64,000 bases of DNA from contig PDRS01000005.1 of NCBI GenBank assembly GCA_002746885.1, forward strand, positions 248,001 through 312,000, given 5' to 3'. The position numbers and the translations under genes are program-made. The DNA comes from Candidatus Saccharimonadota bacterium (GTDB taxonomy: Bacteria > Patescibacteriota > Saccharimonadia > Saccharimonadales > UBA4665). The stretch's first letter is position 1. Each line of letters begins with the position of its first letter. A model generated the notes under the pieces. That model searched no databases and had not been told where the DNA came from. It was given only the letters and a program-made list of their open reading frames with translations. Shown here one piece after another: positions 7,404 through 59,620 of the stretch.

Positions 7404-7409
7404 TAGAAT
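7404..7409 (+). promoter_or_regulatory. -10 box of guaB
   Basis: TAGAAT lies five bases before the guaB ATG and there is no Shine-Dalgarno sequence. This fits the leaderless pattern seen in many genes of this window. Confidence 0.6.
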
Positions 7410-7414
7410 AAGAC

Positions 7415-8545
7415 ATGGAAAAATTTTCTCTTTCACTCACATTTAACGACGTACTCCTTCGTCCGGGGTACTCGGGGTTTGACCGCTCCGAAATTAACCT
7501 ACAAACAAACCTAACGAAAAAACTGGCGCTCGCTGGTCCGTTTGTGTCTGCGCCGATGGACACGGTTACGGAAGCACGGTTGGCGATCGCGCTGGCAGAA
7601 CAGGGCGGTGTTGGCATCATTCACCGCAACCTCACTGTCGAGCAGCAAGCCGCAGAAGTCACCTCCGTGAAAAAGGCCGGAAAAATCGTTGGCGCGGCCG
7701 TCGGAAGCAATCCAGGCTACGAAACGCGCGTTGAAGCGCTGGTAGCCGCTGGAGTTGATTTCATACTCGTAGACTCCGCGCACGGCTATGCAAAAAAGGT
7801 AATCAGCGCAGTCAAGGACATAAAACAGCGGTTCGACATAGAGGTCATGGCAGGCAATATCGCGACAGCAGACGGCGCGCAAGCGCTCATTGACGCTGGC
7901 GCAGATTCGCTCCGGCTCGGTATGGGTCCAGGCGCCATCTGTTCAACGCGTATCGTTTCTGGTATGGGCGTCCCGCAGCTGAGCGCCATTCTTGAAGTAA
8001 AAGACATTGCGCACAAGGCTGGCGTGCCAATCGTAGCCGACGGCGGACTGATCAACTCAGGCGACGCGCTAAAAGCCCTCGCCGCCGGAGCGAGCACGGT
8101 CATGATGGGCCGCATGTTCGCCGCCACCCGGGAAGCGCCGGGCGAAGTAATCACCTACAAAGCCGACCAAGTACCGTCTCGTTTTCGCAGTATTCTCGAC
8201 GGCTCCGACGAATATTCATTCAAAACCTACCGCGGCATGGGATCGCTCGGCGCCATGAAAAAAGGCATGGAAATCAGCAGCGAAGATGAGTTCCATGGCA
8301 AAAACTACACTGGCGATGCGCTCGTTGCCGAAGGCGTCGAAGGACTAGTTCCGTGCAGCGGTTCCGTAAAACAGCTGATTGATCAGTGGATAGGCGGCAT
8401 GCTCAGCGGTATGTACTACGTCGGCGCAAAAACCATACCTGAGCTCTGGGAAAAGGCTGTGTTTACGCAAATTACGCAGTCGTCTTTGACCGAAAGTTTT
8501 CCGCATGATCTGTTCGTGACGGATAACGGCGGAAACTACCAGTAG
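7415..8545 (+). CDS. guaB: IMP dehydrogenase, CBS-less form
   Basis: This enzyme oxidises IMP to XMP with NAD+, the committed step to GMP. The 376-residue product starts with the conserved LTFNDVLLRPGYS. It has the catalytic loop GPGAICSTRIVSGMGVPQ with Cys176, the phosphate-binding PIVADGGL and AGASTVMMG strands, and the flap region YRGMGSLGAM. Family members are usually about 490 residues with two CBS domains inserted after the NLTVEQQ helix. Here the chain runs straight on to KIVGAAVG, so the CBS pair is absent. It is followed by guaA. Confidence 0.95.
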   Translation: MEKFSLSLTFNDVLLRPGYSGFDRSEINLQTNLTKKLALAGPFVSAPMDTVTEARLAIALAEQGGVGIIHRNLTVEQQAAEVTSVKKAGKIVGAAVGSNPGYETRVEALVAAGVDFILVDSAHGYAKKVISAVKDIKQRFDIEVMAGNIATADGAQALIDAGADSLRLGMGPGAICSTRIVSGMGVPQLSAILEVKDIAHKAGVPIVADGGLINSGDALKALAAGASTVMMGRMFAATREAPGEVITYKADQVPSRFRSILDGSDEYSFKTYRGMGSLGAMKKGMEISSEDEFHGKNYTGDALVAEGVEGLVPCSGSVKQLIDQWIGGMLSGMYYVGAKTIPELWEKAVFTQITQSSLTESFPHDLFVTDNGGNYQ

Positions 8546-8659
8546 GCATATGGAAGCTCCTGATAACCATAGCTGCGCTGCCGCGTTGCAGTATTGCAAA
8601 ATTGGCACCGCAAACCCACATACTCTACAGACAGCGCTCACCGCAGAAAGGACAAGCTC

Positions 8660-10204
8660 GTGACCAAACAACCAATTCCGCAAGAAACATTAGTCATTCT
8701 CGATTACGGTAGCCAGTACACACAGCTCATCGCTCGCAAGGCGCGCGAGCTTGGTGTCTATAGTGTTATCCTGCCGTTTCGCGCGAGCCTTGCAGACATT
8801 CAGGCGTACGCGCCGAAGGGGATTATTCTTTCTGGCGGACCAAATAGTGTTTACGAAAAAGACGCACCTACTCTAAATCCAGAACTGTTCGAACAGCAAG
8901 TACCCATACTGGGCATCTGCTATGGTATGCAGTTGTTGGCGCGCAACCTTGGCGGCGTGGTCGAGCCAGGCGCTACCCGTGAATATGGCGAGGCTACCAT
9001 ACGGCTTCAGGCAGATAGCACGCTCTTGCCGACGGAGGTTGACGACTCGACGGTCTGGATGAGTCACGGCGATTATGTTGCTAAAGCGCCGGAGGGTTTC
9101 GCGGTCACGGCAGAAAGCGACGGCATCATTTGCGCCATAGAGGACGCTGCCCTCGGCCTGTTTGGCCTGCAGTTTCACCCAGAAGTTGCGCATAGCCAGC
9201 AGGGCAAACTGGTTTTGGGGCGGTTTTTTGAACTCTGTGGCTTCCGCCGCGACTGGTCGGCTGGCTCTATCATAGACCAGTCGGTCGAGTCTATCCGCCA
9301 ACAGGTTGGTGACGCAAACGTGGTCTGCGCATTGTCCGGCGGGGTTGATAGTTCGGTGGCTGCAACGCTCGTGGACAGAGCCGTCGGCGCGCAGCAAACG
9401 TGTATATTCGTCGATACTGGCTTGCTGCGGCAAGACGAGTACGACTCTGTTCTGGCGGAATACAGCAAAATTGGCCTGAACGTAAAACCAATCCGTGCCG
9501 CCAAAACCTTTTACCAAAAACTGGCGGGCATTAACGATCCAGAACAAAAGCGCAAAATCATCGGCGGGCTGTTTATAGACCTGTTTCAAGCAGAGGCCAA
9601 CAAGCTGGGCGGCGCGAAGTTTTTGGTACAGGGGACGTTATACCCGGATGTTATTGAAAGTGTGTCGGTAAATGGCCCTAGCGTCACCATAAAATCTCAT
9701 CACAATGTCGGCGGGCTTCCAGAGAAGATGCACTTGCAACTGGTCGAGCCGCTCCGCGAGCTGTTCAAGGACGAGGTTCGCGAGCTGGGTACGGCGCTTG
9801 GCCTGCCGGACGTAATTGTGCAGCGCCAACCGTTTCCTGGGCCTGGTTTGGCTATTCGAATTATTGGCGATGTTACTCCAGAGCGGGTTGCGTTATTGCA
9901 GCGCGCCGACGCCATTGTTCGAGAAGAAATAGATAATCACGCTGTTCGTCCGGATGTGTGGCAGTTCTTTGCGGTGTTGCTTCCTATCAACTCGGTAGGC
10001 GTTATGGGCGACGGCCGCACGTACGAGCAGGTGTGCGCAGTGCGCGCGGTGAGCAGTAGTGATGGCATGACCGCCGATTGGGCTCGTCTGCCGCACGATC
10101 TTTTAGCGGGTATATCTAGCCGTATTGTTAGCGAGGTTCGCGGTATAAACCGTGTCGTTTACGACATAACCAGCAAACCGCCTGGCACTATAGAGTGGGA
10201 GTAG
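8660..10204 (+). CDS. guaA: GMP synthase (glutamine-hydrolysing)
   Basis: It converts XMP to GMP using glutamine and ATP. The N-terminal class I amidotransferase has the nucleophile loop GICYGMQLLA and the His/Glu pair in QFHPEV. The ATP-pyrophosphatase domain has the P-loop ALSGGVDSSVAATL. The C-terminal dimerisation domain ends PPGTIEWE, as in the family. The GTG at 8660 is preached by AAAGGA at good spacing and gives 514 residues. An upstream ATG at 8594 would add 22 non-conserved residues. It forms an operon with guaB. Confidence 0.96.
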   Translation: MTKQPIPQETLVILDYGSQYTQLIARKARELGVYSVILPFRASLADIQAYAPKGIILSGGPNSVYEKDAPTLNPELFEQQVPILGICYGMQLLARNLGGVVEPGATREYGEATIRLQADSTLLPTEVDDSTVWMSHGDYVAKAPEGFAVTAESDGIICAIEDAALGLFGLQFHPEVAHSQQGKLVLGRFFELCGFRRDWSAGSIIDQSVESIRQQVGDANVVCALSGGVDSSVAATLVDRAVGAQQTCIFVDTGLLRQDEYDSVLAEYSKIGLNVKPIRAAKTFYQKLAGINDPEQKRKIIGGLFIDLFQAEANKLGGAKFLVQGTLYPDVIESVSVNGPSVTIKSHHNVGGLPEKMHLQLVEPLRELFKDEVRELGTALGLPDVIVQRQPFPGPGLAIRIIGDVTPERVALLQRADAIVREEIDNHAVRPDVWQFFAVLLPINSVGVMGDGRTYEQVCAVRAVSSSDGMTADWARLPHDLLAGISSRIVSEVRGINRVVYDITSKPPGTIEWE

Positions 10205-10314
10205 GCTGGCGGGCCGTCTGGTTCGTGCCTCGGGCGTGCGGCTCGTAATGTGTGCCAATTAAGGCTAGTGCTTTGTCTAGACTGGGCGTTTGTTATCTGT
10301 CATACTCGTGTTAT

Positions 10315-11226: not shown

Positions 11227-11229
11227 TAC

Positions 11230-13850: not shown

Positions 13851-15296
13851 TCATGCGTATCTCCTCGTGGTAATAAACTGGTACATTTTGCGATCGCGCT
13901 CGGCAATGGCGGCAAGCCAGTTCGCGGCCACTTCAAAGGCTCGTTCTGGGCTTATTTCGCGATGAGTCGATGACTGCGTAATCCCTCTCGTCCGAATTTC
14001 GTCATCTACCTTTGTAAGGCAATGTCGGATGATTGGCGCATACACATCCTCGACATGGGCGTCGCTAATAGAACGAATAACCGAAAGAAACATGGACATA
14101 GAACGTTGCAGAAACGCATTCTCCTCGCTTATCCGAATACCGAGTTTGTTGCCCTGATTCAGCACCTGAGTGAAAACCTGGAACAGCTGCTTGTCGGAAA
14201 GATAGCTCTGCAGTTGTACCTGCCGTGTCTGGCTTGATACAAAGCGATCTATAAATCCACTCAGTGAAACCGCATAATCATCGCTTTTTTCTTGGGCAAT
14301 GTGCTCCAAGGCATCGTGCAACTCCGTGTCGAAATACGCCAACATCGCCACCGCAAAACTGCCCGCACGAAAATTATCTTCATAGAGCATCCTCATTTCA
14401 TGGATAAGCTCTGCAAAAGCGCTTCGATTGGTTGGCGCCCGTGCTGTCAAACCAAAATCGAGCAGCGCTACTTTGTTGTCAGGCAAAAGCCGTACGTTAC
14501 CTGGGTGCGGATCAATCATGAGATAGTCAGCATAAACAGTCGCCAAGAGCATTTCCGTACCCATAGTCTGGAGCTGCGTCCACACATCAGAGCCTACGGA
14601 CGCACGAACCATATCGTCTATACGAAAACCCTCCGACTGTTTTTGTTCAAGCGCGCTGATCGAAACACCTCCCACATACTCTTGTACAAGGGCAGTTCTG
14701 GTCGTCAGCTCCATATATGAACGCGGTATAACGAGCGTTCCGTAGCGTTCATAGTACGCTCGGATGCGCTCGCCGCTTTGCGCCTCAAGCCGATAATTTG
14801 TTTCAGCCCAAGTCGCACGGCTGAATTCGCGAGCCATTGTATAAAAATCAACCATGGAGCTTTGCATAAACCAACTCGAAACTCGGCCAATGAGACGAAG
14901 CAGCCGCAAATCAGCCTTCAGCGTCTTCTTTAGCGACGGACGCAATATCTTTATGACAACGTCCTGTCCGTCACGAAGCGTCGCTCGGTACACTTGCCCA
15001 TACGAACCCGCCGCAAACGGTTCAGCGCTGATGAACTGAAAATGCTCCACGAGAGCGCCAAGTTCTGTTCCGACATCGATATATTCGTATGAAACTTGCT
15101 CAAATGCCGTATCAACCCCCAGCTTTTCTACGATATGTTTTGTGCTGCTGTGCACGGCCAACATTTGCAGAAACTTGATGTACACGCCCCCAAGCTGCTG
15201 ACACTGCCGCGCCATTTCGTGTTGCCAGTCATATTTATTCGCCAAACGCGCCAGACCGACTCGCAAGATAGAACGTAGTACTTGTAGCGTCCTCAT
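13851..15296 (-). CDS. ABC1/UbiB-family atypical kinase
   Basis: This 481-residue protein has the family hallmarks: the KxGQ-like segment GGVYIKFLQ (residues about 35-43), the Ala-rich nucleotide loop AAGSYGQVYRA, the lysine in VVIKILRP, the Glu in the ETNYRLEAQ segment, the catalytic DPHPGN, and LLDFGL. In other bacteria UbiB supports quinone synthesis or lipid handling. No quinone gene is visible here, so its substrate is unknown. It lies three bases after a tiny membrane protein gene, in an apparent three-gene operon. Confidence 0.9.
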   Translation of the reverse strand: MRTLQVLRSILRVGLARLANKYDWQHEMARQCQQLGGVYIKFLQMLAVHSSTKHIVEKLGVDTAFEQVSYEYIDVGTELGALVEHFQFISAEPFAAGSYGQVYRATLRDGQDVVIKILRPSLKKTLKADLRLLRLIGRVSSWFMQSSMVDFYTMAREFSRATWAETNYRLEAQSGERIRAYYERYGTLVIPRSYMELTTRTALVQEYVGGVSISALEQKQSEGFRIDDMVRASVGSDVWTQLQTMGTEMLLATVYADYLMIDPHPGNVRLLPDNKVALLDFGLTARAPTNRSAFAELIHEMRMLYEDNFRAGSFAVAMLAYFDTELHDALEHIAQEKSDDYAVSLSGFIDRFVSSQTRQVQLQSYLSDKQLFQVFTQVLNQGNKLGIRISEENAFLQRSMSMFLSVIRSISDAHVEDVYAPIIRHCLTKVDDEIRTRGITQSSTHREISPERAFEVAANWLAAIAERDRKMYQFITTRRYA

Positions 15297-15299
15297 CGT

Positions 15300-15455
15300 C
15301 TAACGTCCCCGCCGAAAGCCAATCAGAAACAACACCACCGTCAGCCCTATGACAACCGCTGCCAAAAAAAGTGCATTTACCGCAGTCTTGATCGCCAAAA
15401 GCAACAGACCTATCCACATTGCAACAATTGCTAGGAACACAAAAGCGTAACGCAT
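15300..15455 (-). CDS. Tiny two-helix membrane protein upstream of the UbiB-like kinase
   Basis: An ATG at 15455 encodes 51 residues: M-R-Y-A-F-V-F-L-A-I, a first helix, a short polar turn with Lys-Thr-Ala-Val-Asn, a second helix and the basic end F-R-R-G-R. A TATACT box (15465-15470) lies nine bases upstream and there is no Shine-Dalgarno, so it is probably leaderless. Its stop is three bases before the kinase ATG. No family recognised. Confidence 0.7.
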   Translation of the reverse strand: MRYAFVFLAIVAMWIGLLLLAIKTAVNALFLAAVVIGLTVVLFLIGFRRGR

Positions 15456-15642
15456 AACACGTCCAGTATACCACGCACCCCTTCACTCTGGGCAGGCTTT
15501 CGCGGCCAGCTTGCAAGCGAGCCGCCGCGAAAAAAGCAGTTCGCTACACTACCCACTTTGGTGCCATGCTTGGTTCCGTCAGGCTTGACGATAAACAAAC
15601 GCAAAATACTGTTATACTTTGTATAGTAAGGAGAAATTCACC

Positions 15643-17294: not shown

Positions 17295-18097
17295 CGTTTC
17301 GTCCGTTTTCGCCGCAGCCCCCCGAAAAGTCGTTCGTACAAAACCGGCAGCGGCGAAGCAAGATACAGCAAAAGCGCGCCAACAAACCAACAGAGCGGCC
17401 AACTCCAATAGCCATGGCGGCGAAGCGTACGAGGCCACATTTGCAAATACGGCCAAAGCGCCTTGTTTTCGGTGTGAATACGGCGCATTTCTACCCGAAC
17501 TTTTGAAGAGGAGTCATAGTGTATACGACCACCAACACGACGCACATGAAACGAAAGGTCGAGGTCTTCATGAAGCGTATTGTCGAGACAAACATTATTC
17601 GCAACCTGTTGCCACAGTGTTTTTGGGAGCGCCATGCTTGAACCCCAAAGCGTCGGACTACCGGTCAGCAAAGCATTGAACCGAAAAATGAGCCAGTTGT
17701 ACGTCCCGCTTATAAGACGGCTTGGTCGCATATTGTAAAAATGTGCGCCGCCAGTCAAAGCGACAGTTTCGTGTCCGCCGGCGTAAAACCGCGACACCCA
17801 GGCAACCCAATCGGGCGGCACAATGGCATCGGCATCTATACGGGCGAAAATATCGCCGCTCGCGCGCCGAAACCCAGCATTGCGCGCATAAACGCGTCCT
17901 CTTTGCCGCTCATGCACAACGCGCACAAAATCGTACTGAGCCGCTACCGCGGCAGAGCCGTCTGAAGAATCGTTATCTACTACAATAACTTCGTGTGGCC
18001 GGACGGTTTGGGCGGCAAGCGCGTCGAGACAGGCCGGTAAACGCTTCGCTTCGTTATAGGCTGGAATAATAACTGATATTTTTGGGTGTTTTGGCAC
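17291..18097 (-). CDS. Family 2 glycosyltransferase
   Basis: The GT-A domain opens with KISVIIPAYNEAKRLPACLDAL, continues with VIVVDNDSSDGS and ends its sugar-nucleotide site at RIDADAIVP (DxD). A C-terminal pair of hydrophobic helices (WPLCWFVGALLLYLASPLPVLY) suggests membrane association. It probably adds sugars to a lipid- or wall-linked glycan. The GTG at 18097 directly follows a -10-like sequence shared with the divergent gene. A start at 18139 would add 14 unconserved residues. Confidence 0.88.
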   Translation of the reverse strand: MPKHPKISVIIPAYNEAKRLPACLDALAAQTVRPHEVIVVDNDSSDGSAAVAAQYDFVRVVHERQRGRVYARNAGFRRASGDIFARIDADAIVPPDWVAWVSRFYAGGHETVALTGGAHFYNMRPSRLISGTYNWLIFRFNALLTGSPTLWGSSMALPKTLWQQVANNVCLDNTLHEDLDLSFHVRRVGGRIHYDSSSKVRVEMRRIHTENKALWPYLQMWPRTLRRHGYWSWPLCWFVGALLLYLASPLPVLYERLFGGLRRKRTKR

Positions 18098-19332: not shown

Positions 19333-19605
19333 TTACGCTACCGCTTTTTCAAGTCGAGTAATGCGCTCCTCATGGTCGTCGAGCTGTTCTTGGTTGGCGT
19401 CATTTGAGTCAGCTATAGCGTTTTGGACAAACTCAGCTAGATCGTCGATTTTCTGATGTATGGGAGCTAGCTTTTCCTGAAACTTTTCTTCTAGTTTTTC
19501 CTCTAGTTTTTCGTCGAGAAGCTGCTCGAACTCAGCCATAAGCATGCGGTTATTCGCAGCAAACAGCTGTTTTAGGTCTTCGATTTCGTCAACACTGAAA
19601 CTCAT
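19333..19605 (-). CDS. Small coiled-coil protein
   Basis: This 90-residue, highly charged protein is predicted to be coiled coil almost throughout, with the internal pattern LDEKLEEKLEEKFQEKL. No membrane helix or enzyme motif is seen. TATACT (19614-19619) lies eight bases before the ATG without a ribosome binding site. It is convergent with the upstream GH-like gene and lies between the two GH-like paralogues. Confidence 0.75.
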   Translation of the reverse strand: MSFSVDEIEDLKQLFAANNRMLMAEFEQLLDEKLEEKLEEKFQEKLAPIHQKIDDLAEFVQNAIADSNDANQEQLDDHEERITRLEKAVA

Positions 19606-19657
19606 AGAACTCTAGTATAGCACGCTAAGGGGGCGGAAATCTGTTATATTTATTGCA

Positions 19658-20554
19658 ATGATTGATCCCAAAAAATACGGCATAAGCTTTAGCGCAAAAC
19701 AGTGTCGCAACTTTGGTCTTGACCCGCAAAAAACACTCCGCTGGCTACTTAAGAACGGCTGGCGGCGCTTTCGCCTTATGAGCTACTGGGACGAATACGA
19801 AACGACGCAAGGGAAGTACGACTTCAGTGAACTGGATCGACACATACACCTCATCGAAAACGCTGGAGGCAGCGTCACGCTCTGCCTAGGCGTCAAACAG
19901 CCGCGCTGGCCAGAATACCACTGGCCCGCCTGGGCGCTTGAGCTACCCGAGCAGCAAAAAACGCAAGCACTGCTGGAGTTTTTGCAGACAACAGTGCAGC
20001 GCTACGACAAAACAGCTGCAGTCCAAAGCTATCAACTGGAAAATGAAGCACTGTTACGCGGCTTCGGCAGAAACGTCAGTATAAACCGAGCGCGTTTACG
20101 CGCTGAATACCAGCTCGTCAGTAAGCTAACAGACAAACCTATCTCCATGAGCGCGAGCAATGGTTGGGGCATACCCCTACGCCAACCTCGTCCGCGGGGC
20201 GGCACTGGTTTCAGCATATACACTACCATGTTTGCCAAAGGCAAACAGCGCACAACCGTCCAAAAACCGTGGCTACACCGACTGCGCCGTTTCGTCATAG
20301 AAAAAGGCATGGGGAGGTCAGTGTTCGTTCACGAACTGCAACTCGAACCATGGGGCGCAAAAGCTATTTGGGAAATGACTACAGAAGAACAAAACCAGTC
20401 AATGAACCCTGCGCGCATTCGCGCCAACATAGCCTTCGCCCATCAAGTCGGGGCGTACCCCATAGACCTCTGGGGCGCAGAGTGGTGGTACTGGCGCTAT
20501 CAAAGCGGCGACAAAACCATCTGGCATAGCGTTGCATCCGCCCTAGAAGACTAA
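19658..20554 (+). CDS. Cytoplasmic glycoside-hydrolase-like paralogue
   Basis: This 298-residue protein shares ordered motifs with the gene at 18151: WRRFRLMSYW, the GKYDFSELD strand, VKQPRWPE, SYQLENEA (Glu130 as acid/base), HELQLEPWGA (Glu226/Glu230) and DLWGAEWWYWR. It lacks any signal or membrane segment, so it should act inside the cell, unlike its anchored partner. TATATT (19645-19650) lies seven bases before the ATG with no ribosome binding site. The substrate is unknown. Confidence 0.8.
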   Translation: MIDPKKYGISFSAKQCRNFGLDPQKTLRWLLKNGWRRFRLMSYWDEYETTQGKYDFSELDRHIHLIENAGGSVTLCLGVKQPRWPEYHWPAWALELPEQQKTQALLEFLQTTVQRYDKTAAVQSYQLENEALLRGFGRNVSINRARLRAEYQLVSKLTDKPISMSASNGWGIPLRQPRPRGGTGFSIYTTMFAKGKQRTTVQKPWLHRLRRFVIEKGMGRSVFVHELQLEPWGAKAIWEMTTEEQNQSMNPARIRANIAFAHQVGAYPIDLWGAEWWYWRYQSGDKTIWHSVASALED

Positions 20555-20690: not shown

Positions 20691-21476
20691 TTACCCCCAG
20701 AATGAGTTCTCGACACGCCAGTCCTTTGGACTGGTAAATTCGACAAACTTGAAGGCAGCAGCGATACGACTGCGCATTGCATCAGATATTGCATCTGCTG
20801 CTTTTCTGCGTTGCTCGTCAAGATTCTGTAGTTCATCGGGTTTATGGCGCTCCAAATAATCACGATCCATAAGCTCACGCTCACCTTCTGGCATCTGCCC
20901 TGGAGTTTCCAGTAGTCCAAAAGGGTCTTTCGTGTTCGACGTTACGATAACCAACCCGCCTCTCTCGTACGCCGCCCTAATGGCGGCGAAGGCAACTTTT
21001 TGATGTACGGGGTGACCATCCCCAGGGCTATAGTCGTCCAAAACCAAAGCCGACGGACCGCGCGGCGCCATATCAAACGCTGTTGTGTGTACCCGCGGTG
21101 AAAATATAGAGGTAACTTTCGAGTTACGCTCTGGCCTATCGGGATCGCGCGTAAAATACGCGGGGTGTTCTGCTTGCCTATCTGAAAACGTAGGCAGATG
21201 CACATAAGCCGTCAAAACGTCCCTCTCAGCCAGGGCGCGGCCAAGCCCGACCGCAAAATGCGTTTTTCCAGTTCCCGGCGGACCGTACAAATACAAGCCA
21301 ACAGGCTGACCACCGTGCCAACGCTCCAACAAGGCACCAGCCGCCGACATAGCTTCATCAAGCCTGCCGTCGTTGTTTTCTAGCCCATCTAGTGTCGAAA
21401 ACTCGTGCGCAGCAGGGTACGACCCCCCCCAATTTGGAATTTCACTCAAACTTGTAACTGGTTGTACTTCACTCAT
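20691..21476 (-). CDS. DnaC/IstB-like AAA+ ATPase
   Basis: This 261-residue P-loop ATPase has Walker A GPPGTGKT and Walker B ALVLDDYS, followed by a sensor-like VIVTSNT strand, as in DnaC or IstB helicase-loading ATPases. No transposase is adjacent, so it is not evidently part of an IS21-type element. TATCAT (21483-21488) lies six bases before the ATG. GGAGCT falls in the same spacer, so leaderless or leadered initiation are both possible. An eight-G tract lies near codons 17-19. Confidence 0.8.
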   Translation of the reverse strand: MSEVQPVTSLSEIPNWGGSYPAAHEFSTLDGLENNDGRLDEAMSAAGALLERWHGGQPVGLYLYGPPGTGKTHFAVGLGRALAERDVLTAYVHLPTFSDRQAEHPAYFTRDPDRPERNSKVTSIFSPRVHTTAFDMAPRGPSALVLDDYSPGDGHPVHQKVAFAAIRAAYERGGLVIVTSNTKDPFGLLETPGQMPEGERELMDRDYLERHKPDELQNLDEQRRKAADAISDAMRSRIAAAFKFVEFTSPKDWRVENSFWG

Positions 21477-21558
21477 AGCTCCATGATAGCATTTTTATAT
21501 ACTTTTGTCAATATTGCGCTCATTCCACTGATATTATGTTATAGAAATAGAAAAACAA

Positions 21559-21598: not shown

Positions 21599-22405
21599 CT
21601 AGTGCTTTGCGTGTTCGCGCAGCGCCGCTCCAACCCATTTAAGCATGTTATCTGTATCCGCTTTTTGAACCTGATTCAAGCCCGCGAATAAACCCATCGC
21701 AGAACCTGTGTTTGCCTGTTGCCACCGACACGCCTGACGCCGCAGCGCAAATAGTGTCACCAGACTTTCATTACCCGTCGGCTGTCGGGAAACTGATAGC
21801 GCTTGGGTGATTTTATGGGTCATACGGTCGACAGCAACACCCTTAGCATCTACCGCCGTAATCGCACCTGACGCACCGCGTAAATCTTGCTCAATGTATG
21901 TTTTAACCGCGTTGCAGAACAACAGTGCGTCAAGGAGCAGCGAGGGGTTATCTTCTTGCTCCGGCTCATAACCTGGATCATCATTGAACACGGTATCTCT
22001 AAAACGGATATCATCACCAAGCACCTCAGTGCGAGTGTATGCCGCAACTAGGTTACCTGGCAGGAGCGTAACACCTTTGTAGTTTTGACCGTGTTCTATC
22101 GGAAGAGCAAAAAAATCATTTCGATTATGGCAGCCGCGAGAAGCCGAGGGGTCGGCAGTATAGATCAATGCTTCGAGGGCTGGCGATAGATACCTAGGGG
22201 CTATCGTCAAAGATTCTTGAGTAACGCGTATGCCGTCATCATTCGGCTGGCGACCAGGCTCTGCGCCAAAAGAGAGCTGTAGATATCCCATTGGTGCATC
22301 CCGTAACTCTCCAGGAATGCCGTTTTGCGAGAATTGCGTAATAGCAGCAAGAAATATGCCGCTCGCAGCTTCGCCAAATCGCCGCCGAAGTAATGTTTCG
22401 CTCAT
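21599..22405 (-). CDS. Unknown protein, 268 residues
   Basis: I do not recognise this family. The protein is soluble, with no signal or membrane helix. It has a Phe/Pro-rich N-terminal half, an acidic patch (DDPGYEPEQED) and a helical C-terminus (RRQACRWQQANTGSAMGLFAGLNQV). A CATAGT box six bases upstream fits the leaderless pattern. It lies upstream of the DnaC-like ATPase on the same strand and may be functionally linked to it. Confidence 0.7.
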   Translation of the reverse strand: MSETLLRRRFGEAASGIFLAAITQFSQNGIPGELRDAPMGYLQLSFGAEPGRQPNDDGIRVTQESLTIAPRYLSPALEALIYTADPSASRGCHNRNDFFALPIEHGQNYKGVTLLPGNLVAAYTRTEVLGDDIRFRDTVFNDDPGYEPEQEDNPSLLLDALLFCNAVKTYIEQDLRGASGAITAVDAKGVAVDRMTHKITQALSVSRQPTGNESLVTLFALRRQACRWQQANTGSAMGLFAGLNQVQKADTDNMLKWVGAALREHAKH

Positions 22406-22466
22406 CGTCTCACTATGTCACATATATATAGAAACTTATTTTTATACTGTATACTGACGAACGATT

Positions 22467-35971: not shown

Positions 35972-37381
35972 TTATTTGTGTAATTTCTGGCGAGGAAGCA
36001 TGTTACGGGCAAGCAGCAAAGTGCGACGCATTGGCCGACCAATAAACGTGCCAAAGCTAGCTCCAGAGGCGATAGCAAAGGCAATCAACGCTGCGTTGAA
36101 AAGTGTCAGCATACCTCCGTTGAGATCGCCGTAGCTTGAGCCAAGAACAACTTTCATCAAGCCGTTATATAACGTCAAACCAGGAACAAGCGGTACGATG
36201 CCCGCCATAATGAGCCCCGACGACGAACTGCGCCAAAACCGCGCAACTATTGTCGCAGTAAAACCTACCGCCATCGCCGCCATACCGCTTGCAACGACCG
36301 TAGTCAAGTTGAGCTGAGCATAACTCATCTGGTAGATCAGCCAAGCGAACACCCCCATACCGCCCGACGCCGCAATAGCCAGTTTTCCCGACTGCATACT
36401 GAGCGCATAACCTGCCGAAATCAACATTGCGCCCACGTACTGCCAGCCGCCGCGAGCGAGCACTTCCTGACCAGAGTTTACCGAAATCGCAAAACCAAGC
36501 TGCTTCGCCACATACAACCCAATGATCACACCCGTTACAATACCTGCCGTCATTATCATAACCTTCAAAAGACGAGCGTTCGCCGTTACATAATATTCAT
36601 CTATAGCGTCTTGCACAGCGCCGACCACAGCCAATCCAGCAGCCAACATCACGATACCGCCTATGACAATAAGTGTTGGATTTACCCCAGAAAACAGCGC
36701 AAACTCCGCTCGACCAGCCCAGGTCACCAGCGCAGCAACCAAGGTAATAATAGTAGCCGAAGATATTTGCGCAAAAAACGTCGGCGTGTTTTTTGTTTCG
36801 AAAAACTTCAGTAGATACGTCACCCCAACACCGACCAGCAGCATGATAGCGATGATGATCGGCTTGGCGCCAAACATTATTCCCACTCCGGCGCTAATAA
36901 ACGCACTGCCGACCGCCTTAAGCCACTGCGGATATTCCCACGGCGATTCCAGTAGTTTTTCTAGTCTGTCTTCGGCCTCACTCAGCTCTAGATCACCAGC
37001 CGCAATCTCGTGAATAAGCTCCTGCAAGCTCTGCACGACCATATTGTTCGGCGTCTGCGGTCGCGCGTGCCGAATCAGCGTCAGCGGTTCCAGCGTATCG
37101 CCCCTGTCTTGCGAAGCCATAATAGTCGTTGAGCTAATATCGAATTGTACTTTTCGCTTACAGTAGCGATCAGTAATATCAAGCGCCATACTCACGACAT
37201 CGCTCACCGCCACGCCCGAACCCAGCAAGACTTCTGCGCTCGTCGTCGCAAGTCGAAGTGCTCGAATATTCGGCGAAAGATGTTCGCTCAACTCCGCCTT
37301 AAGCGACGCATTCACTAGTTTCTCTTCCGACTGAAACGCGCCTTTCAAAGCCTGTTTTATATGGGTAATTTTTTCTTGCAC
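35972..37381 (-). CDS. ThrE-like threonine/serine exporter family protein
   Basis: This protein of about 469 residues has a soluble N-terminal domain (1-165) with HARPQTPNN-type residues and about ten membrane helices. It matches the DUF1212 plus DUF3815 arrangement of ThrE, here in one chain. It probably exports small amino acids or related solutes. The second GTG (37381) is preferred because TATACT (37388-37393) ends six bases before it. The first GTG (37387) abuts the -10 box. Confidence 0.82.
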   Translation of the reverse strand: MQEKITHIKQALKGAFQSEEKLVNASLKAELSEHLSPNIRALRLATTSAEVLLGSGVAVSDVVSMALDITDRYCKRKVQFDISSTTIMASQDRGDTLEPLTLIRHARPQTPNNMVVQSLQELIHEIAAGDLELSEAEDRLEKLLESPWEYPQWLKAVGSAFISAGVGIMFGAKPIIIAIMLLVGVGVTYLLKFFETKNTPTFFAQISSATIITLVAALVTWAGRAEFALFSGVNPTLIVIGGIVMLAAGLAVVGAVQDAIDEYYVTANARLLKVMIMTAGIVTGVIIGLYVAKQLGFAISVNSGQEVLARGGWQYVGAMLISAGYALSMQSGKLAIAASGGMGVFAWLIYQMSYAQLNLTTVVASGMAAMAVGFTATIVARFWRSSSSGLIMAGIVPLVPGLTLYNGLMKVVLGSSYGDLNGGMLTLFNAALIAFAIASGASFGTFIGRPMRRTLLLARNMLPRQKLHK

Positions 37382-37531
37382 AGACACAGTATAGCAGCTG
37401 TGCTTTTGCTTTTATCATTTTTTCATACGGCGGGTCGCGCCGCTGACAAACCACGCCTTTTCGAGCTACTGCAAACAAAACCAAAAACCTGCGTTTGCAA
37501 GGTACTAGAACCAAACCAGCGTCACGCTCGC

Positions 37532-41517: not shown

Positions 41518-42525
41518 CTACGACAGTATTTGTATGCCTAGTGCCGCATACAGCAGCAAAAACATCATGCCTTCCCACAACTGCACGCGTTTCGTAATAC
41601 CAACCACAACAAAAAGCAGCGTCGTCACCGTCAAACCAGTAAGCATCCATACCCCCTCAGGGAAGGCGAGGACTTGCGGCGCCAGTACGCCGCCCAAACC
41701 GGCAATGAGCAGCATATTGAACATGCACGAGCCCACAATATTACCCATAACTATGTCGCCCTTGCCCTTACCCAAAGCCTTCAGCGACACAACCAGCTCA
41801 GGCAAACTTGTGCCAACAGCAAGCGCAAAAAACGACACAACCCCCACGGCAATCCCCGCCGACTCAACCATCCACAAAAGGCTATCGACCGCGTACTTCG
41901 ACGCGGCGGCTAGACCGACAACCGACAGCAGCGCCACAACATAGACTTTCGCCGAAAACTGCGGTTCAGCGCGATCATGATCGGATTGTCTTTTTGGTTT
42001 TGGCTTCTCAGACACCACCGAACTCACCGCCTCGCTTCCTCGCAGCAGAGAAATAAATCCTTTGTGCTGCTCCGGCTCGTCGTTGTACATGAGCGTGTAC
42101 AGCAAATACCCGAGCAAGCCGAGTATCAGCAGAACCGCCTCGGACCGCTGGAGTACACCGTCCACAAGCAGTACGACAAACATAGCCGAAACAGTCAGCA
42201 GCAGCGGTAAATCAAGGTCAATAATGTCTTTCTTGAACCGTATTGTGCCGAGTATAAAGGTCGACACGCCTATTATGATGAGAACGTTCGCAATGTTTGA
42301 GCCGAGCACATTGCTCAGCACAATCTGGTTTTCGCCTGCGAGTACAGAAGCAATACTCGTCGCCAGTTCGGGAAGACTCGTTCCGATTCCCACCAGCAGC
42401 ACGCCTAGCACAAAACCTGGCAACCGCCAGTGTACGCCAATTCTTTCAGCGGCACCCAAAAACCAGTCGGCACACTTCACGACAAGCGCGAGCGCCACAA
42501 CAAACACCAAAGCGTGTAAAATCAT
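41518..42525 (-). CDS. Sodium/calcium exchanger family protein (CaCA)
   Basis: This protein of about 335 residues has two homologous membrane halves with the alpha-repeat motifs VGIGTSLPELATSIASVLAGENQIVLSNVLGSNIANVL and AVGTSLPELVVSLKALGKGKGDIVMGNIVGSCMFNML. A charged cytoplasmic loop (EKPKPKRQSDHDRAEP) joins them. It probably exchanges Ca2+ for Na+ or H+. TATACT (42532-42537) lies six bases before the ATG at 42525. A weak hairpin overlaps the stop codon. Confidence 0.92.
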   Translation of the reverse strand: MILHALVFVVALALVVKCADWFLGAAERIGVHWRLPGFVLGVLLVGIGTSLPELATSIASVLAGENQIVLSNVLGSNIANVLIIIGVSTFILGTIRFKKDIIDLDLPLLLTVSAMFVVLLVDGVLQRSEAVLLILGLLGYLLYTLMYNDEPEQHKGFISLLRGSEAVSSVVSEKPKPKRQSDHDRAEPQFSAKVYVVALLSVVGLAAASKYAVDSLLWMVESAGIAVGVVSFFALAVGTSLPELVVSLKALGKGKGDIVMGNIVGSCMFNMLLIAGLGGVLAPQVLAFPEGVWMLTGLTVTTLLFVVVGITKRVQLWEGMMFLLLYAALGIQILS

Positions 42526-42737
42526 ACGTCCAGTATACGACAAAGCGAACCGTAAATCACCGTCTTACGCACAAAAGTACCCGACTAGCGTTCGCGGCCG
42601 ACAACCAAGCAGCCAGAACCAGAGCATGTAGCCAAACCACACCAACCAAAGCAATACGGCCTAGAGAGAATACTTCATATAAAAAAGCATATAAACACTT
42701 CATTGCAAATATGTTAAATACGTATTAGTGTATATAA

Positions 42738-46373: not shown

Positions 46374-47652
46374 CTTGGTCGCGGCGCGGCCCAACGCCAA
46401 TGTACGAAACAGGTAGGCCAGTCCATTTTTCTATGGCTTCTACATAGTTCTGCGCAGCTTGCGGTAACTCCGAGAAAGCGCGCACTTCGGTGATATCTTC
46501 ATCCCAAGCAGCAAGCTCCTCATAGACTGGCTCGCATTTTTCCAGCGCCCAAGCAGAGTCAGGCGCCATCTGCAACGTTTCGCCGCGATATTTATAGCCA
46601 GTGCAGACCTTTATCTTCCGCCCGTAGCGCGGCACCCAGTCGAGTTTCGTAAGAGCAAGTTCAGTTGTACCATTAACCATATTTGCCCGACGCACACCGG
46701 CAATATCGAGGTAGCCGAGCCGGCGCACACGGCCAGTTGTCGTCCCCATTTCGGCATCGACACCTTTCATGTTTCCGTGCAGGGCTTTGAGCAGTGTTTC
46801 ATCAAAAATCTCGGTCACGAACGGCCCGCCCCCGACGTGCGATTGCACCGCCTTGACGATACCTATAGAACGCTGCAGCGTCGCTGGCGCGACACCCAAG
46901 CCCGTCGCCACGCCGCCCGCCGTCGTGCTTGAAGATGTCACAAACGGGTACATGCCGTGGTCTATGTCGAGCAAAAATGCTTGCGCGCCTTCGGCCAGCA
47001 AAGATGCGCCGCCCCGCAGCCGCTCATTGGTATACACCGACGTATCACTCACGAAAGGTTGCAGCACCTTTATTGCTTCTGCATAACTACTTAGCTCCGC
47101 CGCAATGTCTACCGGAGCAAGCTCATGCTCTTTCCGAAGCGGTTGAATACTTTCGAGACCATCTCGCACAACATCGAGCAGGGCATCATGGCTTCCTAGC
47201 AAACGCTCTACCCGCACGCCCATGCGCGACGCCTTGGCCGCGTAGGTGTCGGCTATGCCTGCTTTGGTCGAACCCTGCGCATGACGACCGCGCTCGCGTA
47301 TCTCCTCAAGCTGTTTATAGTGCGGAAGCACCAAATGAGCAGACGAGCTTACTTTGAGGTTTTCTGGAGTAACGGCTATACCAAGCTGCTGAATAGTCGC
47401 AATTTCTTCGGCGAAACGCACCGGATCTACAATGGTACCGTTGCCGACAATATTGACGACTCCCTCGTGCGCAATACCCGATGGCACAATGTGCAGCGCC
47501 AGCTCGCGGCCGTCCGGCAAAACAACGGTATGACCAGCGTTACTGCCGCCATTAAACCGCGCCACCAACTCGCATTCCGCCGCCAGCAAATCAACAATAC
47601 GACCTTTTCCTTCGTCGCCGCGCTGCTGTCCAAATACCCCTATGATTTTCAC
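46360..47652 (-). CDS. purA: Adenylosuccinate synthetase
   Basis: It joins IMP and aspartate using GTP, the first step to AMP. The 430-residue product has the GTP loop GQQRGDEGKGRIVD, which has QR where most have QW and R where most have K, plus NAGHTVV, the IMP site GSTKAGIADTYAAK, and TGYKYRGE near the base-binding region. Its length is normal. The start is GTG at 47652, six bases after a TACCAT box (47659-47664). An upstream ATG reads only three codons before a stop. Confidence 0.95.
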   Translation of the reverse strand: MKIIGVFGQQRGDEGKGRIVDLLAAECELVARFNGGSNAGHTVVLPDGRELALHIVPSGIAHEGVVNIVGNGTIVDPVRFAEEIATIQQLGIAVTPENLKVSSSAHLVLPHYKQLEEIRERGRHAQGSTKAGIADTYAAKASRMGVRVERLLGSHDALLDVVRDGLESIQPLRKEHELAPVDIAAELSSYAEAIKVLQPFVSDTSVYTNERLRGGASLLAEGAQAFLLDIDHGMYPFVTSSSTTAGGVATGLGVAPATLQRSIGIVKAVQSHVGGGPFVTEIFDETLLKALHGNMKGVDAEMGTTTGRVRRLGYLDIAGVRRANMVNGTTELALTKLDWVPRYGRKIKVCTGYKYRGETLQMAPDSAWALEKCEPVYEELAAWDEDITEVRAFSELPQAAQNYVEAIEKWTGLPVSYIGVGPRRDQVIVR

Positions 47653-47848
47653 TCGTTCATGGTACTAAATCGCGCCGCTATTTTCAATCCCGCCGAGCCT
47701 GCCGAAAACACCAGCACACGCAAGGAGAGGGAAACAGATGCTCAGAAACCTCCGAACCGCAAAACATCGCCAAAATCGAAACAGAAACAAAATATGCGCT
47801 ATTATGCGCTATACTAGTACCTACACATAAGGAGACGATAAGAACTAT

Positions 47849-51341: not shown

Positions 51342-52547
51342 TCAGTCTTTTGCCGGCGACGGACTTTCGTACGCCCGAATGAGTGTCGTATCTGGAAAGT
51401 GCGACAAAAGCCGGCTATCGCCGAAACCGACAAGTCGATCGCCGCTTACTTTCGTTATGCGAGTAGCCAGCCGCTTCTGAGCCCAAGACGTTTGCCTGTT
51501 TCGTATCACCTGCCAGCGCAGTTTGCGTAAGTTCCTGCGGTATTCCCGACGCTTACTTCGCCACGTTTTCAGGCCGTGTTTATCTGTGATGGGCTTTTCT
51601 TTGGGGTCAATGTTTACGTTGTGCGTTGTATCTGCCATTTTCACCAAACCAGCTTCGCAGTCATTTTTCAGCCTTTTGAGATAACGCTTGTTCGTAATAT
51701 GGCCGTCCGGACCGCTCGGTTTTGTGAGCAGGTAGTTATCGCGCGCCACTTCGGCCGCTTCCTGTTTATGCTCGGAGGAAAGGTAAGATTCGAGCAAACG
51801 TTTGTGGAGCAGCGGCGAAGCAAGCATGTTTTCGCCCGGCAAGAACGAAGACCCCCGAGCCTCCTCTTTGTGACTATCGGGTAGCCTATCTTCAAAGGAG
51901 TCGTGCGTTGCTGCACGGTACTGCAACAGACGCAACCAACGCACGCCAAATACATGCTGCCAGTCAGCCGTGTCGCGCACAGCAAGGCTCAATATTTTTG
52001 TAGCAGCAACAGGATGAGTGTAAAACACCGCACCATTGAAACGCCGCTGACCTTTGTGTGCATTCGCCGAAACAACCAGTCCTGCGAGCAAAATATCGAC
52101 ATCCTCGTCACCGTCCTCTTGGCGTATTTGTTCGATCCTATCTTTGACGGCTTGTTCTTCTTTTAGCTTCCCGACGGCCGATCCAACTCCACGGACAGTC
52201 TGTGCCACGCCAAACTCGGCAATAGCTACCGCGTCGTGTAGTTCCGCTTCAGACAAACCGAGCCCGCGCCACTCAGCCGCGTTTTCGTGCGTCAGCAGAC
52301 AGAGATGTCCAAGCTCTACAGCGAGCTGCTCACGAGTATTCAGTCGACTCTCACCAGCTTGTATTTGCACCGCGACAGGCTTGTCGTGCCTACGGTCATC
52401 CAGCCAGCCAAGCAGGGCAGTGTCCTGCCCGCGAAAATAACTGTTTGGGTCGTAAAACCCATGAAACGACTCCGGCAAAACTACTGCCGGCGGTGCACTC
52501 TCTACACTCCCGCGTGTCACGACACTACCTGTACTCCCGCGCATCAT
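51342..52547 (-). CDS. SpoT/RelA-like HD-domain protein
   Basis: This 401-residue protein contains the HD hydrolase pattern of SpoT: ANAHKGQRRFNGAVFYTHPVAATKI, then YRAATHDSFED, and later GLVKMADTTHNV (canonical LxKLADRLHNM). No synthetase or TGS/ACT domain is present, so hydrolysis of (p)ppGpp or another nucleotide is the best guess. The C-terminal 80 residues are strongly basic. CATAAT (52554-52559) lies six bases before the first of two ATG codons. Confidence 0.72.
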   Translation of the reverse strand: MMRGSTGSVVTRGSVESAPPAVVLPESFHGFYDPNSYFRGQDTALLGWLDDRRHDKPVAVQIQAGESRLNTREQLAVELGHLCLLTHENAAEWRGLGLSEAELHDAVAIAEFGVAQTVRGVGSAVGKLKEEQAVKDRIEQIRQEDGDEDVDILLAGLVVSANAHKGQRRFNGAVFYTHPVAATKILSLAVRDTADWQHVFGVRWLRLLQYRAATHDSFEDRLPDSHKEEARGSSFLPGENMLASPLLHKRLLESYLSSEHKQEAAEVARDNYLLTKPSGPDGHITNKRYLKRLKNDCEAGLVKMADTTHNVNIDPKEKPITDKHGLKTWRSKRREYRRNLRKLRWQVIRNRQTSWAQKRLATRITKVSGDRLVGFGDSRLLSHFPDTTLIRAYESPSPAKD

Positions 52548-52668
52548 AACACTATTATGTCAGTAAATGGTATATTGTTCAACCCCACGCACGAGCCTCA
52601 AAACCCACACACATCAGCAAACAAAGCATGTGTAGCACGATAAACGGCATTAGGCACAGCAAACAAAG

Positions 52669-54915: not shown

Positions 54916-54918
54916 ACT

Positions 54919-54940: not shown

Positions 54941-55122
54941 TTTTCAACCACATACTAATACGACCAGTTTCTATGAATTTATGCTAATACATTATTGCAT
55001 GTAGGTCAATTTCCTCAAAAAGTCGCCCCACCGAATCCAAAACAAACCGTTGACATTATTTTGCGTGCAGTGTAATAATATGACATCATTACACCACACT
55101 AGAGTCGCGAAGGAGTTGTAAG

Positions 55123-55926: not shown

Positions 55927-55995
55927 CCAGCGGAAAGCTACCCTCCGCGCGCGGCGCGGTGTAAACGCTGCCAAGACAGCGGGAGTTGCGAGTAG

Positions 55996-57384: not shown

Positions 57385-57406
57385 AATACCCTCGTTTCTA
57401 CGCGTT

Positions 57407-58366
57407 TCATCGTTGCTCCAGCAACATTTTTTTCACGTTGGTTTCGATGCGTTTTTCTATATTGGTCGTGTCGGGCGGCTGAAAATCAGTACCAGTTAAA
57501 CGTTCGTACACGAACCGATAGCGCCGTTCTAGTTCAGCAATAACGTCGTCTGGCACAACTGGCGCTTCGCTGTCCTGAGCATAGGGATCAAACCGAGCTT
57601 TGAACCACAGCCGCAAAAACTCTTTGTCGTAATTTTCTGGTTCCTCACCAGCGGCAAGCCGTTCGGCATAACTCTCGCGCAGCCAGTAGCGCGACGAATC
57701 TTGCGTATGGAGCTCGTCTATGAGCACAACTTCTCCCTCTGGAGTCAAACCAAACTCATACTTTGTGTCGACGAGCAGCAAACCAGCCGCTTCAGCTTTT
57801 TGCTGACCAAAACGAAACAGTTCGAGGGCAATGCGGCTGACACGCTCCCAGACGTCGCGATCGAGCAGCCCCGTGGCAACCGCTTCTGCTGGCGTGAGGT
57901 TACGGTCATGCGTTTCAAACTTCGTCGTCGGCGTCAGCACTGGTTCGGGCAGTTTGTCATTTTTTTTCAGTCCATCGGGCAAAACAAACGTACCGTAATC
58001 GCGCTGGCCGCCAGAGTACGTGTGCCAGAGCGAAGTGTTCGTGACCCCTGTAATATAGCCGCGCACGACTGTTTCTAGAGGAATAACGTCGTATTTACGG
58101 CAGTACGCGACATTGGGGTCGGGGTAGGAAATAATATGGTTCGGCACAATGGACGTTGTCTGTTCAAACCACCAACGACTCGTTTGAGTCAACAAAGCGC
58201 CTTTATGTGGGACTGTCGCCAAAACACGGTCAAAAGCGCTATAACGGTCGGTCGCCACCAACATAAGCCGGTCGCCAAAATCGTACACGTCGCGCACCTT
58301 CCCGTGGTACACCGCCTTTTCATCTGGTAAATCAAGCTTTGTTTCCTGCAATATCGCCGTATTCAT
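57407..58366 (-). CDS. purC: SAICAR synthetase
   Basis: It condenses CAIR with aspartate. The protein of about 319 residues is of the longer type, with YHGKVRDVYDFGDRLMLVATDRYSAFDR, VRGYITG, TKFETHDRNLT, DTKYEFG and LIDELHTQDSSRYW. The ATG at 58366 follows TATACT (58373-58378) by six bases. The longer frame from 58468 would place the start upstream of the promoter. It is divergent from purK and followed by purB. Confidence 0.95.
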   Translation of the reverse strand: MNTAILQETKLDLPDEKAVYHGKVRDVYDFGDRLMLVATDRYSAFDRVLATVPHKGALLTQTSRWWFEQTTSIVPNHIISYPDPNVAYCRKYDVIPLETVVRGYITGVTNTSLWHTYSGGQRDYGTFVLPDGLKKNDKLPEPVLTPTTKFETHDRNLTPAEAVATGLLDRDVWERVSRIALELFRFGQQKAEAAGLLLVDTKYEFGLTPEGEVVLIDELHTQDSSRYWLRESYAERLAAGEEPENYDKEFLRLWFKARFDPYAQDSEAPVVPDDVIAELERRYRFVYERLTGTDFQPPDTTNIEKRIETNVKKMLLEQR

Positions 58367-58474
58367 GCTGCTAGTATACCGCTTCTGGCGCAAAGCGTTA
58401 AGCCAGTTTATGGCCGTTTTGCGTGCAAACCCCAGAACTTCTTTCCAGAACGGCTCGCGTGTTATCATAAACGC

Positions 58475-59620
58475 ATGTCGGAACCGGAGTTACACACCTT
58501 GACCATTGGTATTGTCGGCGGCGGACAGCTCGGGCGCATGCTGACGCTCGCAGCAAAACCGCTCGGCTTTGCCGTTGTGGTAGTCGACCCCAGCAAACAC
58601 TGTCCAGCCGCGCAAGTTGGTGCGCGTCAGATTGTCGCAGATCTTTACGACGCAGCCGCGCTGCGCCAGCTCGCAGCCGATGCAGATTTTGTGACAGTCG
58701 AAATCGAGCATCTCGACGCCGAAATGCTCGAAAAAATCGAACAGAGCGGGGCGGTTATCAACCCTTCGCCGTCGACTATTCGACTCATTCAGGATAAATA
58801 CGCCCAAAAAACACAGCTGCAAGCGAGCGGCGTGCCGCTCGCGCCATTCGCCGAAATAAACGGGGCCGACTCGGCCCAGGATGCCCTCAAACGCTTCGGC
58901 GGCGAGATGCTCGTGAAAACGCGCCACGGCGCTTACGACGGGCGCGGCAATATGCTCGTGCGCTCAGAAGAGGAGCTCGCCGACGCACTCGATCGCTTTG
59001 CCGACAAAAAGCTGTACGCCGAAAAGCGCATAGACTTTGAACGCGAACTAGCTGTCATGGTCGCGCGAGACACGAACGGGGAAATCGCCCTTTATCCGAT
59101 TGTCCAGACCATTCATGAACGCAACATTTGCACCGAAGTATTAGTACCCGCACCAGTTTCCAAAACAATCACGCAAAAAGCCGAGACTATTGCTCGCCAA
59201 GTCGCCGCGCTCCTTAGCGGCGCAGGTACGTTCGGCATAGAACTCTTTTTGACGAAAGACGGAGATGTCCTCGTCAACGAAATCGCTCCTCGCGTCCACA
59301 ACAGCGGCCATTACACTACCGAAGCGTGCCGCACCAGCCAGTTTGAACAGCACATTCGCGCCATCGCCGGCCTACCGCTCGGCGACACTTCGCTCACCGT
59401 CCCAGCGGCTGTCATGATCAACATCCTCGGCGAACGCGACGGCCCCACCGCGCCGCAAGGCACAGCCGATGTGCTGGCCGTCCCAGGCGCCAGTTTACAT
59501 CTATATGGCAAACACCCCACCAAAGTTGACCGCAAGATGGGACACATCACGGTAACGGCCGACAGCGTCGAAACCGCCCAAAAACTGGCGCAAAAAGCGC
59601 GGAAAGCCTTTTCTATATGA
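58475..59620 (+). CDS. purK: N5-carboxyaminoimidazole ribonucleotide synthase
   Basis: This ATP-grasp enzyme makes N5-CAIR from AIR. The 381-residue product has IGIVGGGQLGRML, NPSPSTIRLIQDKYAQK, VKTRHGAYDGRGN, FERELAVMVAR, and VNEIAPRVHNSGHYTTEAC. TATCAT (58463-58468) lies six bases before the ATG, facing the purC promoter. It works with PurE further downstream. Confidence 0.95.
   Translation: MSEPELHTLTIGIVGGGQLGRMLTLAAKPLGFAVVVVDPSKHCPAAQVGARQIVADLYDAAALRQLAADADFVTVEIEHLDAEMLEKIEQSGAVINPSPSTIRLIQDKYAQKTQLQASGVPLAPFAEINGADSAQDALKRFGGEMLVKTRHGAYDGRGNMLVRSEEELADALDRFADKKLYAEKRIDFERELAVMVARDTNGEIALYPIVQTIHERNICTEVLVPAPVSKTITQKAETIARQVAALLSGAGTFGIELFLTKDGDVLVNEIAPRVHNSGHYTTEACRTSQFEQHIRAIAGLPLGDTSLTVPAAVMINILGERDGPTAPQGTADVLAVPGASLHLYGKHPTKVDRKMGHITVTADSVETAQKLAQKARKAFSI

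Follow-up and report, generated by a model that had tools for sequence, protein, structure and literature searches.

How does a bacterium with a genome of about 1 Mb start translation where the promoter of a gene appears to end directly before its start codon? The question arises from a 64-kb stretch of DNA (the window; bases 248001–312000 of contig C15) in a genome of 1.06 Mb in 17 contigs, 97% complete and with 51% GC. The organism belongs to Candidatus Saccharibacteria (Patescibacteria): among the best matches to its SmpB in species genomes, 28 of the 30 top loci (L243–L272) are from Candidatus Saccharibacteria, the other 2 being from a "bacterium" and from a bin labelled Nomurabacteria. 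In the window, a first-pass annotation had noted about 20 genes with a TATAAT-like hexamer 5 to 9 bases before the start codon and without a Shine-Dalgarno (SD) sequence, and had read the hexamers as −10 boxes. All 21 pairs of box and start coordinates can be read back (for the minus strand, the annotation gave the box base nearest the start), with 19 exact TANNNT hexamers and 2 inexact ones (CATAGT at 22405 and CATAAT at 52547, both at spacer 6, the spacer being the number of bases between box and start codon). The spacers are 5 (n = 1), 6 (n = 13), 7 (n = 3), 8 (n = 2), and 9 (n = 2), and no SD 4-mer (AGGA, GGAG, GAGG, or AAGG at −18 to −4) precedes any of the 21 starts. Over 555 kb of the genome, the window included, we find that about 122 of 478 genes, counted above chance, very probably have a sigma-70-type promoter with a −10 box ending 6 to 10 bases before the start codon, such that transcription would likely begin at the start codon or at most about 4 bases ahead of it and yield leaderless mRNA.

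The genome-wide tests cover C15 and 140 kb of contig C4 (555 kb of the 1.06 Mb; 478 genes). Genes were called from coding score and start-codon type only, with no upstream signal, and transcription units and promoter-proximal status were assigned solely from intergenic gap and strand. On C15, 371 of the 372 called genes have sufficient flanking sequence for a shuffle test and 366 fall into four position classes. TANNNT at spacers 4 to 9 precedes 40 of 96 divergent genes (13.6 in shuffled sequence, standard deviation 3.3), 47 of 140 genes with a same-strand gap of at least 80 bases (15.4, 3.7), 13 of the 48 whose gap measures 25 to 79 bases (5.3, 2.2), and 4 of the 82 that are closely packed (5.0, 2.3). 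The SD 4-mers run in the opposite direction, being found before 24, 41, 22, and 59 genes of the same classes, respectively. TANNNT is a loose and common motif, matched by chance before about 1 in 7 divergent genes in the shuffles, and the boxes might thus be no more than accidents of AT-rich composition from which an earlier reader picked the matches. At the genome level this explanation is refuted by the shuffles, by the spacer controls, and by an Escherichia coli control described below, with the closely packed genes lying near chance level, and we give it next to no credence, although single weak boxes such as that of 22405 may be chance matches.

The same signals were recovered by a two-motif model initiated from random matrices on the 478 genes. 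Seven of 8 runs returned TATAcT together with an SD-type motif, and the remaining run, which gave TAtAaT and a T-rich word, had a clearly worse likelihood. The model assigns weights of 0.30, 0.24, 0.08, 0.12, and 0.09 to spacers 6, 7, 8, 9, and 10, and less than 0.005 to each of spacers 3 to 5; such a hard lower limit of 6 is predicted by leaderless transcription, since a transcription start 7 to 8 bases past the box spares the start codon only at spacers of at least 6. The raw priors of the model (45% box-led) are inflated, because the "none" class was left with almost no weight, and null-corrected counts are used in their place, with box and SD thresholds set from resampled upstream sequence and with a null in which the selection of one start among several is carried out anew. 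At these thresholds, box-led genes make up 147 of the 323 in promoter-proximal position (45.0 in the null, standard deviation 4.9), 23 of the 54 intermediate ones (6.8), and 12 of the 101 that are closely packed (8.4); SD-led genes number 105 (43.2), 18 (8.0), and 55 (13.4) in these classes. The excess of box-led genes over the null amounts to about 102 promoter-proximal genes, or about one-third, and corresponds to about one-quarter of all genes. The 2 signals rarely coincide, with 1 of 148 box-led promoter-proximal genes being also SD-led, and the 97 strongest box-led genes of this class start with ATG (87), GTG (8), or TTG (2). The sharp peak that the first-pass annotation had predicted for box spacing is present in the sampled 555 kb even when starts are taken by coding score alone, with 63 hexamers at spacers 6 to 7 against 9.1 expected for the 323 promoter-proximal genes. 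Spacers 8, 9, and 10 hold 11, 17, and 14 boxes; a division into 2 spacer classes, with a dip at 8 between peaks at 6 to 7 and 9 to 10, was rejected, the counts being too small to claim it.

The boxes also carry the hallmarks of promoters. When −35 and TGn elements, neither of which was used by the motif model, were aligned on the 166 boxes, −35 hexamers with at least 4 of 6 matches were found in 34 cases at a gap of 17 bases and in 15 at 18, compared with 3 to 11 at every other gap from 10 to 25. The extended −10 element TGn (TG one base before the box) precedes 71 of 166 boxes, against a mean of 10.6 and a maximum of 35 over 36 other offsets, and 105 of 166 have either TGn or such a −35 hexamer at 16 to 18. 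Further upstream, the 105 SD-led first genes have extended −10 boxes at 16 to 129 bases in 16 cases versus 3.7 in shuffled sequence, 11 of them in the bins covering 20 to 49, whereas no such excess precedes the box-led genes (7 versus 7.2, mononucleotide shuffles). Hence, leadered and leaderless promoters seem to lie side by side in this genome, with the SD-led promoter-proximal genes apparently having ordinary leadered promoters farther upstream, mostly at 20 to 49 bases. These findings bear on the idea that the AT-rich hexamer is not a promoter but a translational element, A/U-rich or bound by protein S1, on leadered mRNAs transcribed from farther upstream. The genome does encode an S1-type protein (a 358-aa open frame with a TIGR00717 match below the cut-off), a small box excess exists also before closely packed genes, and an AT-rich bias before non-SD genes is discussed as possible S1 binding in the accessible text of PMC5397173. 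However, neither TGn nor a −35 hexamer at a gap of 17 would be expected of a translation signal, box-led genes lack the additional upstream promoters that SD-led first genes have, and the boxes are much rarer in closely packed genes, where such a signal would be equally useful, than in promoter-proximal ones. An AT-rich element devoid of promoter hallmarks and independent of gene position is thus not what is observed, and we regard a translational role as very unlikely.

If the boxes are promoters of leaderless mRNAs, the base before the start codon would be −1 of transcription, and an enrichment of pyrimidines is expected there. A pyrimidine occupies this position in 93 of 114 box-led genes with spacers 6 to 7 and in 114 of 178 SD-led genes (p = 0.0015), with corresponding values of 81 of 102 versus 120 of 206 in relatives and 73 of 91 versus 87 of 148 in other genomes of the phylum.

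Conservation of the arrangement is most evident for smpB. The smpB query has 55 matches, spread over 54 of 60 genomes; of the best 30, which include the own locus, 25 are box-led and none is SD-led. Among the best 80 named smpB loci, a set overlapping in part with that of the relatives, box-led genes number 26 of the 28 from Saccharibacteria, as against 1 of 4 from Actinomycetota and 5 of 42 from other bacteria. Beyond Saccharibacteria, a metagenome-assembled genome of Fimbriimonas (L275) carries TACACT 8 bases upstream of its smpB start, and the layout may accordingly extend to other lineages. Conversely, the internal gene atpA is box-led in none and SD-led in 21 of 30 loci, own included. For the exchanger gene, 3 of 8 matches were compared, own included, and 2 of these loci are box-led. 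For the IMP dehydrogenase (IMPDH) gene, TAGAAT at spacer 5 is seen by eye in all of the best 7 of 26 matches (own and 6 nearest relatives), none of which passes the threshold, as a G in third position lowers the score of a box under the model. Reciprocal best hits in 9 relatives (median identities 27% to 69% by genome) show that box-led genes stay box-led in 46 of 63 pairs and turn SD-led in 2, whereas for other genes the ortholog is box-led in 25 of 145 pairs (p = 2e-14); the pairs are not all independent, as many share one gene of the own genome, which tempers this comparison. Where both genes of a pair are promoter-proximal, the ortholog of a box-led gene is box-led in 22 of 27 pairs, versus 12 of 64 for other genes. 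In the locus (smpB, atpA, IMPDH, and exchanger), named-smpB, and ortholog comparisons, starts were picked with some weight on the signal score; this was done in the same way for every taxon, and it raises the numbers of both box-led and SD-led genes and likewise calls for caution.

Wrongly called starts could produce a similar picture, if the true starts lay downstream, next to SD sites, and the boxes belonged to ordinary promoters with leaders. Start calling is indeed fallible here: the coding-only caller missed 3 of 20 listed gene starts (choosing 16743, 37387, and 58468) and omitted a 51-codon open reading frame (ORF). With the start model added, it recovers 20 of the 21 listed starts, 18 of them box-led at the fixed threshold and 2 below it (7415, with TAGAAT at spacer 5, and 22405). 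Against miscalling, the smpB start lies 6 to 10 codons earlier in 6 same-genus loci than in the other 24, and yet each has a box or a box-like hexamer in front of it, though partly by construction; the purC start at 58366 agrees with the family model; box-led status is conserved among orthologs; and the peak at spacers 6 to 7 is already present with coding-score starts, so that its agreement with promoter geometry would have to be coincidental. We consider this explanation even less probable than a translational element. The boxes are therefore best read as promoters: the proposal that they would start transcription near the start codon is supported by the spacer peak, the −35 and TGn elements, the absence of SD sites, and the conservation in orthologs. 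We apply the term "leaderless" with high confidence, from promoter geometry, to what are predicted transcripts.

How far the arrangement extends was assessed in relatives grouped by rank (genus, family, order, class, and phylum, the last presumably Patescibacteria), with starts taken by coding score only; one genome, G041, was left out since its stretches are mostly masked. At spacers 6 to 7, promoter-proximal genes have 33 boxes against 6.1 expected in genus and family (4 genomes, pooled), 28 against 7.0 in the order (4 genomes), 6 against 1.1 in the class (1 genome), and 56 against 20.8 elsewhere in the phylum (11 genomes, pooled). Deinococcus radiodurans plasmid MP1 gives 5 against 0.4 at the same spacers, and 350 kb of E. 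coli show no peak there (1 against 5.7). These values exclude, in every genome, TATA-type hexamers containing ATG or GTG, a filter adopted post hoc after inspection of the first, smaller E. coli control, which had given 7 boxes at spacers 6 to 7 against 2.6 expected, with ATG inside 4 of the 7 hexamers and called starts differing from RefSeq in 5 of the 7. Masked bases were treated as A in that first run and in the ortholog comparison, which is unlikely to create TATA boxes. As a tentative proposal, which we rate somewhat below an even chance, leaderless initiation may be an ancestral default that all Saccharibacteria actively maintain for their first genes, reaching back to the common ancestor of Patescibacteria, with some genes, smpB foremost, held leaderless by selection lineage-wide. 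If so, synthesis of the ribosome-rescue factor SmpB would likely not depend on SD-led initiation.

Several observations weigh against these readings. With 105 SD-led genes and 71 with neither signal among the 323 promoter-proximal genes, the rule is not universal. Closely packed genes have a modest excess of boxes at spacers 6 to 10 in the own genome (8 against 3.4 expected, 101 genes), in genus and family (8 against 2.5, 67 genes), in the order (14 against 4.1, 92 genes), and elsewhere in the phylum (17 against 14.1, 216 genes); some of these boxes may be internal promoters. Boxes at spacers 8 to 10 would leave a leader of 1 to 4 bases rather than none. The pyrimidine test is modest, since genes with neither signal (88 of 118) and those with boxes only at 14 to 49 (107 of 156) also often have a pyrimidine before the start. 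Only 5 of the 11 genomes elsewhere in the phylum are individually above chance (p < 0.05 at spacers 6 to 10), and smpB is box-led in none of 6 named Patescibacteria outside Saccharibacteria among the best 80 named loci. Box-led genes are, as a strong tendency, the first or single genes of their presumed transcription units. The notion that promoter-proximal and internal genes differ in initiation holds for the enrichment of boxes in the former, but that class is itself mixed; similarly, the statement that genes inside operons keep AGGAG-type sites is borne out as a tendency, by the SD 4-mers of packed versus divergent genes, but not as a strict rule.

The following course of events is the most likely. 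RNA polymerase with the housekeeping sigma factor would begin transcription 7 to 8 bases past the −10 box, the transcript opening with the start codon itself or with a few bases ahead of it, and ribosomes would bind the 5′-terminal start codon directly, probably as 70S particles with initiator tRNA, by analogy with the route that the accessible part of a review gives as the usual account for leaderless mRNAs (PMC9031893). Most closely packed genes and about one-third of the promoter-proximal genes would use SD-led initiation. The 16S rRNA ends in GGATTACCTCCTTTCTA with an intact anti-SD, making SD initiation possible, and genes for IF3 and YchF are present. The ychF gene is itself box-led (TACAAT, spacer 7), versus an SD-led start called for the rpsA-type gene (G000:C4:124590 and C4:55214). 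Among the 14 loci at which the 16S 3′ end was read, 13, own included, have GGATTACCTCCTTTCTA, versus GGATCACCTCCTTTTTAG at L021 (G001:C115, in a 210-contig bin), a contig that is possibly foreign to its bin.

Bacteria rich in leaderless genes are a known kind, an unusual point here being the lineage-wide box-led smpB. According to the accessible text of Zheng et al. 2011 (PMC3160421), the share of TA-led genes is about 20% for Actinobacteria and around 40% for Deinococcus-Thermus. As there, a TA-like signal about 10 bases upstream occurs without SD, next to SD-led genes in the same genome; unlike there, the lineage is another one, TGn and −35 elements accompany a TATA[A/C]T box, and the genome is of about 1 Mb with 51% GC. 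The bacterial groups with leaderless genes in that text include no Saccharibacteria or Patescibacteria, one genome being "unclassified". Mycobacterium tuberculosis and other mycobacteria likewise have many genes without a leader, but their 5′ ends, by the accessible parts of the reports (PMC3898074, PMC4633059), were mapped, whereas ours are deduced from sequence. Our literature search, mostly without subscription papers and preprints, found no report of leaderless genes in Saccharibacteria or Patescibacteria; in those papers pairing "leaderless" with these names that were consulted, the word occurs only in reference lists or in a remark on YchF. The GeneMarkS-2 scheme of Lomsadze et al. 2018 reportedly covers bacterial genomes with predicted leaderless transcription. 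The present genome fits the description of such genomes as summarised in the available text of StartLink (PMC9581028), the main text of which, as far as available, does not mention TM7, Candidate Phyla Radiation (CPR), or Saccharibacteria.

Since Saccharibacteria and Patescibacteria are known mostly from metagenomes, their gene starts depend on software, and gene finders that do not model leaderless genes can get them wrong: the coding-only caller lengthened purC in the window by 34 codons. A layout in which promoter and start codon are read together offers a direct test of start annotation. The results bear on how tiny bacteria such as Saccharibacteria likely begin protein synthesis, a small-genome bacterium likely initiating translation on 2 kinds of mRNA, and open the age of bacterial leaderless initiation to testing in a group beyond the classic examples.

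Box-led starts of the window and an SD-led contrast. Coordinates are window positions; a range on the minus strand runs from start codon to far end of the signal.
Signal	Coordinates	Strand	Gene	Spacer	Remark
−10 TAGAAT	box 7404-7409, start 7415	+	IMP dehydrogenase family	5	below model threshold
−10 TACACT	box 15916, start 15928	+	CobA/BtuR adenosyltransferase	6	
−10 TATACT	box 16704, start 16719	+	staphylococcal-nuclease domain	9	GTG start
−10 TATATT	box 19645, start 19658	+	no Pfam match	7	
−10 TACAAT	box 22491, start 22503	+	smpB	6	box-led in most Saccharibacteria compared
−10 TATAAT	box 24931, start 24945	+		8	
−10 TATAAT	box 27662, start 27674	+		6	
−10 TACAAT	box 29649, start 29662	+		7	
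−10 TACAAT	box 31207, start 31220	+	P-type ATPase	7	
−10 TACAAT	box 39316, start 39328	+	FUR-family regulator	6	
−10 TATCAT	box 39752, start 39764	+	diaminopimelate epimerase	6	
−10 TATCAT	box 58463, start 58475	+	PurK-like	6	
−10 TATACT	box 15470-15465, start 15455	−	51-codon hydrophobic ORF heading ABC1-kinase gene	9	missed by caller
−10 TATACT	19605..19619	−	90-aa gene	8	
−10 TATCAT	21476..21488	−		6	
weak box CATAGT	22405..22417	−		6	below threshold
−10 TATACT	37381..37393	−	ThrE family	6	GTG start
−10 TATACT	42525..42537	−	sodium/calcium exchanger	6	
−10 TACCAT	47652..47664	−	adenylosuccinate synthetase (PurA)	6	GTG start
box CATAAT	52547..52559	−		6	
−10 TATACT	58366..58378	−	purC	6	residue 6 aligned to position 6 of NCBIfam PurC model
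TATACT	61515..61531	−		10	additional to the first-pass list; score 7.6
TACAAT	7231..7247	−		10	additional to the first-pass list; score 6.2
SD AAGGAA	4710..4726	−	atpA	10	contrast: SD-led internal gene

An Rfam scan of the window gave a tRNA only, and locus L001 gave no match. The 51-codon ORF starting at 15455 stops 3 bases before the ABC1-kinase start at 15296, and 15455 is not the kinase start; the kinase gene in this region (15296-15470, minus strand) has no clear SD, and the 2 frames are likely translated in sequence. Genes for IMPDH (7415), diaminopimelate epimerase (39764), PurA (47652), PurC (58366), and a PurK-like protein (58475) occur together in this Saccharibacteria genome of about 1 Mb, and the IMPDH query has matches in only 19 of the 60 genomes, own included. 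At 18097 (minus) and 18112 (plus), the start model gives divergent box-led starts separated by only 14 bases, their boxes overlapping on opposite strands, and one of the 2 may be miscalled. Two box-led starts each also flank the divergent intergenic regions 19605-19658 (52 bases) and 58366-58475 (108 bases).

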